Part shown: piece after piece, positions 2,484-5,980 of the stretch
How positions within the stretch are numbered: position 1 is the first letter of the stretch
Layout: each line of letters starts with the position of its first letter
Assembly: GCA_015228935.1 (NCBI GenBank)
Contig: JADGCO010000002.1
Location: 99,838-139,806, forward strand
Origin: Magnetococcales bacterium
Lineage (GTDB): Bacteria > Pseudomonadota > Magnetococcia > Magnetococcales > DC0425bin3
Length of the DNA stretch: 39,969 nt
Reading direction: 5' to 3'
Program-made: the position numbers and the translations under genes
The notes under the pieces: generated by a model
The model's input: only the letters and a program-made list of their open reading frames with translations
Database searches by the model: none
Told to the model about the DNA's origin: nothing

Positions 2484-4373
2484 TCAACTCCCTTTTTGCC
2501 CGGTCTTGAAATATTTCATGCTGTTTTCAAGGAGTTCAGCCTGGGCCGAAAGTTCCTCCGACGTGGCGGACATCTCTTCTGCCGCACCGGCATTTCTCTG
2601 GATGACCTGATCCAATTGCTGGATGGCCTGGTTGATCTGGCCAATACCCTGACTCTGCTCCTGGGTGGCACTGGCAATTTCCCGGATCAGTTCAGAGGTT
2701 TTTTGGATGTCGGGAACCAATTGATCGATAATGCCCAGGGTCTTTTCTGCCACAGCCACACTGGACCCGGACAACTGGTTGATTTCACTGGCGGCAGACT
2801 GACTCCGTTCGGCCAGTTTCCGGACTTCGGCGGCAACCACGGCAAAACCCTTGCCTTGTTCACCCGCCCGCGCCGCCTCGATGGCGGCATTGAGCGCCAA
2901 CAGGTTGGTCTGCCGGGCAATTTCTTCAATCACCGAAATTTTTTCCGCAATGGAGCGCATGGCCTTGACCGCCTCGGCAACGGCGACGCCTCCTTCCACG
3001 GCATCTTTTGCGGCTTTTGTGGCAATCTTGTCGGTTTGCTGGGCACTGTCGCTGTTTTGCTGGATCCCGGAGGCCATTTGTTCCATGGCTGCGGAGGTCT
3101 CTTCAATTGCGGCGGCCTGTTCGGAAGCCCCTTGTGCCATCCCCTGGGAAACCTCCAACAATTCCCCACTGCCGCTGGCTACCGACGTCGAAGCATGGGC
3201 GATTTCACCAACAACCTCGCGCAGACGGTTCACCATGGAGTTCAGGGCCTGAACCAATTGACCCGTCTCATCTTCTTGATGAAGATCCAGATTTTGCGTC
3301 AAATCGCCAGAAGCGATTCTCTTTGCAAAGTCAACACCCTGTACAACGGGCGACGTAATGGACCGGGCAATCAGGAATGCCAGGATAATTCCCACGACGA
3401 TGGAAATAGCTAAAACCGCCACCACACCGATACGTGTCTGCACACCATTATGGACCATCACCTCTTCCGACATGATGTTTTGATTGGTCACCTCGATGAC
3501 CTGGTGCAACAGATTTTTCACATCGACCAGATGCTTTTGAGTTTCCGTGGCAAAAATGGCCCGCGCTTTTCCTTTTCCTTCCAGGTTTTTGTAGGCAAGC
3601 TCTTCCATTTTTGCCAGGTCGGACTGGACACCAACCAGGGCACCATTGATGCCGGACTGATAGATTTTTTTGGCCTCGGAAAAATTCCCCGCTTTCAATG
3701 CTTCGTGAACATCATGACCCAGCCGGTGCAACTCCTTGTGGACGGGTTCGACATGCGCGAGGATTTCGGCCATTTTGGAATCAGCCTGGCGTTTGTTTTG
3801 GGCATCCGGGCCATAGATGAACTTGCCAAACTGACATTGCGTTGGATCCAACTGGACGGTCAGCTCACGCTCTTCCTTGAGTATGGCGTTTTGCACCTTG
3901 CCGGCCCAGCCCAGATGGGCCGCTTCCATTTTGGCAAGAAACCCGGGAAACTTGTCGTCTGCCGGATGAAAGACATCCTGAATTTTGGCAGCAGAGGCAT
4001 GCAACAGTTTATGGGGTTCTTCCAACTGGGTGAAAATGGGACCCAATGTTGGAACCATGGCCTCGGCCAGTTTGCGTCCCTCCCCATAATACCATTTGCC
4101 AAAGGCGCACTGGGTATGGTCCAACTGCACGTCCAGGCGTGCCGCCGAGTCACTGCTGATAAAGGCGCTCAGGGCATTGGCCCAGTTCAGATGGTCGATC
4201 TCTTTCTGGAGAATGTTGCCACGCAACTGATTCCCCCCCACAACAACCTTCCCATCCGCGACCATGCGCGTGATACCGGAAACAGCCCACAACCCCAATC
4301 CCGACATCAAAACAAGCACGACACCGATGCCAATCAGAACCTTTTTGTTAATGCTTAAATTTTTCCACCTCAT
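2484..4373 (-). CDS. Methyl-accepting chemotaxis protein with two tandem CZB zinc-binding domains
   Basis: Transducer that would control CheA. With the ATG at 4373 (a G-rich ribosome site precedes it; an in-frame TTG lies 6 bases upstream) it has 629 residues. TM1 covers about residues 8-32 and TM2 about 312-335. A HAMP domain follows, then a long cytoplasmic signalling coiled coil with the hairpin tip at EIARQTNLLALNAAIEAARAG (split by family as E-x-ARQTN and ALNAAIEAARAG). The region between the membrane spans carries two CZB-like domains. The first has His61, Cys89 (in HTQCAFGKW), His121 and His125; the second has His153, Cys180 (in PTQCQFGKF), His212 and His216. Both show the 3-His/1-Cys pattern. 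Topology predicts that the pair lies outside the cytoplasm. It is the first gene of a likely operon with the hybrid kinase. The family call is firm; the zinc or oxidant-sensing role is known for CZB and inferred here. Confidence 0.95.
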   Translation of the reverse strand: MRWKNLSINKKVLIGIGVVLVLMSGLGLWAVSGITRMVADGKVVVGGNQLRGNILQKEIDHLNWANALSAFISSDSAARLDVQLDHTQCAFGKWYYGEGRKLAEAMVPTLGPIFTQLEEPHKLLHASAAKIQDVFHPADDKFPGFLAKMEAAHLGWAGKVQNAILKEERELTVQLDPTQCQFGKFIYGPDAQNKRQADSKMAEILAHVEPVHKELHRLGHDVHEALKAGNFSEAKKIYQSGINGALVGVQSDLAKMEELAYKNLEGKGKARAIFATETQKHLVDVKNLLHQVIEVTNQNIMSEEVMVHNGVQTRIGVVAVLAISIVVGIILAFLIARSITSPVVQGVDFAKRIASGDLTQNLDLHQEDETGQLVQALNSMVNRLREVVGEIAHASTSVASGSGELLEVSQGMAQGASEQAAAIEETSAAMEQMASGIQQNSDSAQQTDKIATKAAKDAVEGGVAVAEAVKAMRSIAEKISVIEEIARQTNLLALNAAIEAARAGEQGKGFAVVAAEVRKLAERSQSAASEINQLSGSSVAVAEKTLGIIDQLVPDIQKTSELIREIASATQEQSQGIGQINQAIQQLDQVIQRNAGAAEEMSATSEELSAQAELLENSMKYFKTGQKGS

Positions 4374-4489
4374 GATCAATACCCCCCATCAAACCCCTTC
4401 CTGTCCCGTTTGGCCGACACTCCGACCTGAAGCAGCATCGGCAGACTAGCAGATTTGACGCGGGTTTGAAAGGATGGTAAGGATGTCAA

Positions 4490-4949: not shown

Positions 4950-5645
4950 ATGGTTGGATCCGATTTTTCTGGACGCTGGCGTGAATTTTTGGAAAAATCA
5001 GGTGAGACACGGGAGCAGAAACCTTTGGACAATGACTCAATAAAAATCTGCTGGCACTGTCTGGCCGGTGAAACACTGAAAATGCTGCTGGAACCCGTCG
5101 GCATTGAAGTACGTTCGGAAGTCCAGGTCGTGGCTGCCCCACCCAAAGCCGACCTGATTTTGATTCAACGCAAAGCAGGATGCCAGACGGAAGCGCAACG
5201 ATTGCTCCTGGCCGACGGATTGTGGGACCTCGATGCAGACCATATTCTGGTTGAATTGAAAATCACCGAAAGCCTGGACGAGAATGCTCTTTCCCAACTT
5301 GCGGTGTACGACTACCTCTATTTGGGCACCGCAAAGTTGCAACGGCAGCAATTGCGAAGTGTCCTCATCAGTTCCACAACACCGCGAAAAGAATTCCTGG
5401 CGAGGTTCGCTTTTGAAACCACAGGATCCCGTGGCGTCTATGAAAGCAAGCCACGCTGGGGCGGCATCATTCGATTAATACTTTTGAATGAACTGAAAAA
5501 TGAGGTCCGCAACGCCCCGTTGAAATTTTTTGCAAGCCGCATGGACGAGAAAAAAAAGCCTTTGAAACAATCAAGAACACGAAGTTATTCAAACTCTCCA
5601 CGGCATTCAATCAGATCATCTTCGGTTTATGGAGATTACAGATGA
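4950..5645 (+). CDS. PD-(D/E)XK-like nuclease domain protein, zero-frame product
   Basis: A 231-residue frame if started at ATG 4950. The frame is open back to 4749, but that extension looks non-coding. The core has the spacing of a PD-(D/E)XK fold: Asp68 in PPKADLILIQRK, then Glu102-Leu-Lys104 in HILVELKIT, followed by a helix with Q-L-x-x-Y. This resembles the Rpn/transposase-associated nuclease group common in large multi-copy families. After an A8 run at 5550-5557 the zero-frame tail becomes an Arg/Ser-rich string and stops at a TGA that overlaps the next ATG (ATGA, 5642-5645). The -1 frame continues instead as an amphipathic helical segment straight into the next ORF. So the intact protein is probably the 343-residue fusion, made by frameshifting or broken by a one-base change. 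Confidence 0.7.
   Translation: MVGSDFSGRWREFLEKSGETREQKPLDNDSIKICWHCLAGETLKMLLEPVGIEVRSEVQVVAAPPKADLILIQRKAGCQTEAQRLLLADGLWDLDADHILVELKITESLDENALSQLAVYDYLYLGTAKLQRQQLRSVLISSTTPRKEFLARFAFETTGSRGVYESKPRWGGIIRLILLNELKNEVRNAPLKFFASRMDEKKKPLKQSRTRSYSNSPRHSIRSSSVYGDYR
5552..5558 (+). promoter_or_regulatory. Canonical -1 ribosomal slippery heptamer A AAA AAG
   Basis: Zero-frame codons are GAG AAA AAA AAG CCT, so bases 5552-5558 form X XXY YYZ exactly in phase. Slippage by -1 gives ...E-K-K-K-A-F-E-T-I-K... and runs without a stop into the 5642 ORF. A AAA AAG is the efficient heptamer known from dnaX and IS3-type elements. I see no strong stimulatory hairpin just downstream. The alternative is a one-base loss from an A-run. 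Confidence 0.6.
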
Positions 5646-5980
5646 AAGGTTCAATGAACAGCCCAGAGTTGAAAGAGATCACAGTAGATCATGTCATGAA
5701 ACTTGGGAAAGAATGGATGGACTTCATCCTGAACGCAACACCCGTCGAAGTGCTTCTGTCCACACCACAATTGGAACATTGTCTGGACCAGGAACATCGG
5801 AATGGACACCGAGATGGCGAAGCCAGGATGCTGATGCGTCAGTTGCAACGCCGCTTCGGCAGCGTGCCTGACTGGGTCAACGAAAAAATTGCCAAAGCCG
5901 ATCTGGCATCCCTGGAAGCGTGGGGGCTGCGGTTTGTGGATGCCCAATTCTTGGACGAGGTATTCGCTGACAAGGTGTGA
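5642..5980 (+). CDS. DUF4351-like domain protein, or C-terminal part of the nuclease fusion
   Basis: 112 residues. It begins with a W-x-D-F-I-L-N-x-T-P motif (about 30-40), then a His/Gly/Arg stretch (HRNGHRDGEAR), and ends with a DUF4351-like domain: L-x-R-Q-L-x-R-R-F-G, then W, then a helix-turn-helix with L-x-x-L-E-x-W-x-L-R-x-x-D-A. ATG 5642 has GGAG upstream and overlaps the stop of the preceding frame (ATGA), so it can be translated by coupling. Its homologue at the right edge of the window shares the start region even at DNA level. In this family the domain usually forms the C-terminus of PD-(D/E)XK proteins, which supports reading it as the second half of a split gene. The biochemical role of the domain is not known to me. 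Confidence 0.75.
   Translation: MKGSMNSPELKEITVDHVMKLGKEWMDFILNATPVEVLLSTPQLEHCLDQEHRNGHRDGEARMLMRQLQRRFGSVPDWVNEKIAKADLASLEAWGLRFVDAQFLDEVFADKV

Follow-up and report, generated by a model that had tools for sequence, protein, structure and literature searches.

Two reading frames meet at a run of eight adenines

The window analyzed here is a 39,969-nucleotide stretch of a Magnetococcales draft genome (4.7 Mb, 197 contigs), and the locus of interest, on its forward strand, comprises two overlapping open reading frames (ORFs). The upstream ORF extends from a probable TTG start to a premature TGA (5025 to 5645) and encodes an N-terminal domain followed by 28 out-of-frame residues. It is preceded by a probable Shine-Dalgarno (SD) sequence, GGGAG, at 5011 to 5015, and most paralogues have a like SD and TTG upstream. 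The putative PD-(D/E)XK catalytic residues (5151 to 5261) are all present, namely, D43 (5151 to 5153), E77 (5253 to 5255), and K79 (5259 to 5261). The downstream ORF encodes 112 amino acids from a conserved ATG (5642 to 5980), with an intragenic SD, GGAG, at 5631 to 5634, and its product is a candidate RpnS-like antitoxin. This ORF contains a tetrapeptide-repeat region, EHRNGHRDGEAR (5792 to 5827), whose copy number varies within the family, and a DUF4351 domain (PF14261; residues 54 to 106, encoded at 5801 to 5959; E value of 1.4e-7), which bears out its description as DUF4351-like in a first-pass annotation.

The two ORFs meet at an A8 run (5550 to 5557), at which homologues have nine bases, making up three codons. 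In the nuclease frame, the junction reads GAG (5547) AAA AAA AAG CCT; the run is followed by a G at 5558 and then by CC, and an in-phase A_AAA_AAG heptamer occupies 5552 to 5558. The zero frame continues as PLKQSRTRSYSNSPRHSIRSSSVYGDYR and ends at 5645; past the junction, the −1 frame has no stop before the one at 5980. The first-pass annotation had proposed that a −1 slip joins the two parts into a 343-residue nuclease fusion. The A8 run, the in-phase heptamer, the open −1 frame, the GGAG, and the ATGA at 5642 are all present, and no stop separates the two parts; the stated length, however, was counted from a Met codon at 4950, and the fusion would have 318 residues because the paralogue start is a TTG that matches window position 5025.

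Homologues read the junction in a single frame

To compare the junction, DNA spanning it was taken from ~80 Magnetococcales copies. These homologues pass through the junction in a single frame (...ERKKAFETIKHAGLF...), and the usual state across them is ASR(Q/M)(D/E)E(R/Q)KKAFETIKHAGLF. Between GAG and GCC, the family has nine bases and the window eight, leaving it one nucleotide short. Homology of the window nuclease ORF to 80 copies stops at the junction, and the region that follows (5558 to 5641; AFETIKNTKLF...GLWRLQ), which aligns in frame with the ~80 homologues as the ancestral linker coding region, is out of frame with the nuclease in the window. The Arg/Ser-rich tail of the window ORF is an out-of-frame version of this conserved linker. 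A relaxed-selection test on the segment that is now out of frame gave a rank of 7 out of 48. No second copy broken at the window's junction site was found among the ~80 homologues; one candidate, L068, was rejected since its break lies upstream. Most likely, the window junction reflects the loss of a single letter, which broke one copy of a common Magnetococcales nuclease gene. The simple decay offered as an alternative by the first-pass annotation is now the best fit, and the slip that it favored was not borne out.

Programmed −1 ribosomal frameshifting at A_AAA_AAG would yield a regulated mix of short nuclease and long fusion, and several features of the window suit it: the heptamer is the optimal shift heptamer in E. 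coli and is in phase, both frames are otherwise open, and the heptamer is followed by CC, reported for E. coli as the 3′ dinucleotide most prone to shifting (PMC5009743). However, in homologues the fusion occupies a single frame, A_AAA_AAG is kept in only 8 of the 79 copies other than the window's (A_AAA_AAA in 15), and the arrangement is unique to the window copy. No stem was found downstream of the heptamer when folds without pseudoknots were modelled (z score of +1.27; 185 of 200 shuffles fold equally well or better), and GGAG, AGGA, and GAGG are absent just upstream of it. In addition, the 40-kb window contains 27 copies of AAAAAAG, whereas shuffled sequences would be expected to give 9, so the presence of the heptamer carries little weight by itself. 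Because the fusion is normally single frame and the heptamer is not kept, programmed frameshifting is not supported, and we regard it as highly improbable. The dnaX and IS-element systems use the same A_AAA_AAG in phase; unlike in those systems, the heptamer here is not conserved, there is no stimulatory stem, and the fusion is normally a single-frame product. A dnaX-like conserved slip that truncates the intact homologues was also considered and was rejected, as A_AAA_AAR is found in just 23 of the 79 copies and the −1 extensions range from 2 to 72 residues.

Three further readings concern the length of the run itself. An assembly or consensus error, with a true A9 and an intact gene, would give exactly the window pattern through a one-base homopolymer mistake in a draft genome of many contigs. 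If the reads were short ones, however, eight-base homopolymers would usually be called correctly, and we consider such an error very unlikely. Phase variation between A8 (off) and A9 (on) within a population is about as improbable: poly-A runs are mutable, and L019, a close paralogue that a larger deletion has broken, carries A9 within the same EKKKAFETIK context, but the family does not keep the run long, having mixed R/Q/K codons at this site, and the A8 state was seen in a single genome. Finally, slippage of the ribosome or RNA polymerase on A8 could rescue some full-length protein without being programmed, such that the broken gene partly works. Neither part of the window gene has a second lesion, and in some bacteria, runs of A8 to A9 are prone to slippage that can bring broken ORFs back into frame (PMC1088944). 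On the other hand, many genomes show selection against runs from a length of nine bases (PMC1088944), which A8 does not reach, and the lesion may just be recent. Such leakage is somewhat easier to credit than phase variation or an assembly error, yet it too is unlikely. The one-letter deletion is not obviously old, judging by the retained catalytic residues and the lack of a further stop in either part.

The family is mobile, multicopy, and decaying

The N-terminal part has 19 matches in the window genome, and several other copies in this genome are broken through frameshifts, deletions, or contig ends. In-frame TAG or TAA codons in several own-genome paralogues, which resembled stops, were not counted as breaks, as they precede the true TTG start. 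A search of 61 relatives found homologues of the N-terminal part in 22, all of them Magnetococcales, and the same limit to Magnetococcales held in a phylum-wide sample of 299 genomes. Two genomes of the same genus (G001 and G002) have the same flanking genes at syntenic loci and lack the window gene. Since the family is mobile, present in multiple copies, and decaying, the loss of one base in the window copy is ordinary. A methyl-accepting chemotaxis-like gene (2484 to 4379, reverse strand) adjoins the nuclease locus and is also missing from the syntenic loci L120 and L121 of the two same-genus genomes.

An internal start site is conserved at the nucleotide level

The frameshift in the window is itself ordinary, and the real signal at this locus is a start site within the gene that is found across the family. 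In counts over 81 copies, the internal ATG is conserved in all 81, and GGAG lies exactly 7 nucleotides 5′ of it in 77. In the window, these elements (5631 to 5644) fall within coding sequence for GLWRLxMKG. The residues encoded by GGAG vary across copies (WR, RR, RS, or GR), and the codons used for them are restricted: an Arg at position −3 of the internal ATG is encoded by AGR in 63 of 63 cases and an Arg at −4 in 26 of 27, against 0 to 12% AGR in most other Arg columns of the family. Among divergent pairs, the six-codon windows of highest synonymous identity all surround the internal ATG. We also counted changes by parsimony on a tree built without the GGAG and ATG columns and compared the result with 300 windows of the same phase. 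GGAG required 5 nucleotide changes against 32 steps expected, the lowest value of the 300 windows, while the residues encoded across it, at two codons, changed ~16 times on the tree. We attribute this pattern to selection for translation initiation, because protein constraint alone does not predict it. The internal Met may have a role at the protein level as well, although such a role leaves the GGAG unexplained.

The four copies that lack the usual GGAG (L044, L092, L093, and L094) form a subfamily, and all read ATGGAGGGTnnnATG. In these copies, GGAGG is found 5 nucleotides before a new ATG, four codons downstream, an arrangement seen in none of the 77 other copies. This subfamily appears to have a relocated start site, and the relocation of both the SD and the ATG suggests that production of the small protein is selected for. 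Copies of the C-terminal part that lack most of the N-domain mostly retain the internal ATG, and many also retain GGAG; three N-truncated copies (L178, L180, and L181) keep the ATG and not the SD.

Collectively, these data strongly support the view that the family consists of nuclease genes with an intragenic start for their own DUF4351 C-terminal protein, much like RpnL/RpnS, and we infer from them that the small protein is translated and acts as an antitoxin. A free C-terminal domain made from the GGAG and ATG, as the first-pass annotation suggested, is thereby strongly supported family-wide; the ATGA overlap to which it drew attention (the TGA at 5643 to 5645 with the ATG at 5642 to 5644) is a by-product of an ATG followed by an A, read in the shifted frame. 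The family's internal start may already have been noticed in the literature.

The N-terminal domain has no detectable kinship with Rpn

Across 44 aligned homologues, D43 and K79 are invariant and E77 is at least 90% conserved, in keeping with the D ... (D/E)xK signature of PD-(D/E)XK nucleases, which the window copy also carries. On the basis of the D43/E77/K79 motif, we consider the N-domain a putative PD-(D/E)XK-like nuclease. An AlphaFold model made to address its fold was of low confidence (pLDDT of 45). None of the 44 members matched PF04754, none had a match to another Pfam model covering the N-domain, and TIGR01784 gave a weak match in 2 of them (best, 1.1e-4). No solved structure in the PDB covers the domain, the one chain matched aligning at profile positions 170 to 223 only, and PADLOC returned a single weak match. 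Comparison of the N-domain by hhalign with three Rpn-type groups of Magnetococcales gave probabilities of 0.1 to 0.2% and no alignment. Because the N-domain is unmatched by TIGR01784, PF04754, or other models, we describe the family as working like RpnL/RpnS and not as Rpn.

The C-terminal module is shared with Rpn proteins

In E. coli rpn genes, RpnS is made from an internal start and binds and blocks RpnL; four-residue repeats determine specificity, rpnS also occurs as separate genes, which in some species bear the annotation DUF4351, and one Rpn system restricts phages (Zhong et al. 2023, PMC10327210). The window family shares much of this organization. PF14261 is present in 43 of 44 members, and hhalign aligned the family's C-terminal module with the C-terminal end of PF04754 Rpn with a probability of 99.4%. 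Like RpnL/RpnS, the family combines a nuclease N-terminal part with a separate C-terminal protein that would be made from a conserved, in-frame internal start with its own SD; variable-number tetrapeptide repeats lie in the small protein, the C-terminal module is DUF4351, copy number is high, and some copies have a free-standing C-terminal gene. The two differ in that the N-domain of the window family, which is known here from sequence, is not matched by Rpn models and in that its start lies ~50 residues before the repeats, predicting a protein of ~112 amino acids compared with 5.4 kDa for RpnAS.

The PF04754 Rpn genes of Magnetococcales, which served as a positive control, have an SD-like core before a conserved internal Met near the repeats in 21 of 21 cases. 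They have the same DUF4351 C-module as the window family and likewise a conserved internal SD before Met, whereas their N-domain is different (hhalign probability of 0.2%) and their start is nearer to the repeats. Among PF04754-type genes (L219 to L246 and L136 to L140), a near-invariant GAGGAGG or CAGGAGG is found upstream of the Met in PEEEEKMMSQFA or LQEVDAMLAETV, and this element and Met read as a textbook RpnS start. In the window genome, DUF4351 is matched 51 times and the C-domain profile 69 times, on several unrelated N-domains; the DUF4351 module seems to be shuffled in this genome.

A proposed gene-within-gene arrangement

The explanation that we favor with considerable confidence is that the window holds a copy, broken by a change from A9 to A8, of a single-frame nuclease-DUF4351 family with an intragenic start for an RpnS-like restraining protein. 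The family gene would normally produce one protein of ~320 residues, in which a PD-(D/E)XK-like nuclease domain is followed by a linker, variable tetrapeptide repeats, and the C-terminal DUF4351 domain. In intact copies, the hidden start should additionally yield the tail as a small protein of its own, as in the antitoxin-within-toxin Rpn phage-defence genes: the C-terminal ~112 residues would be translated by themselves from the internal SD and ATG, and this product would most likely keep the full-length nuclease in check by binding to it, in the way that RpnS acts on RpnL. We extend the RpnL/RpnS logic to the family because the DUF4351 module, the variable repeats, and the internal start are common to both. 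In the window copy, loss of one A from the A9 run would have left the nuclease domain ending in an accidental 28-residue tail, severed from DUF4351, with the internal start undamaged and the small, free DUF4351 protein still encoded intact. Most likely, the truncated nuclease is inactivated through loss of its C-terminal module. The support at the sequence level consists of the single-frame homologues, the one-base deficit, the nucleotide-level conservation of the internal start, the intact catalytic residues, and the intact C-terminal ORF.

A broader reading, toward which we lean with more reserve, is that this is a non-Rpn nuclease family, found only in Magnetococcales among the genomes searched, with its own gene-within-gene antitoxin, and that the DUF4351/RpnS module can be exchanged between unrelated nuclease domains, an internal start being carried along or regained in every case; in the window copy, such a gene would have been split naturally into a truncated toxin and a free antitoxin. 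The C-terminal module with its own start seems to be combined with different nuclease domains, and intragenic antitoxins are perhaps not limited to Rpn proteins, as the family-wide internal start suggests.

Extra C-terminal DUF4351 ORFs in tandem were seen at L055 (685 to 1020 and 2160 to 2450), L049 (2075 to 2452), and L189. They adjoin full-length genes or each other, an arrangement that resembles E. coli rpnES/ypaA.
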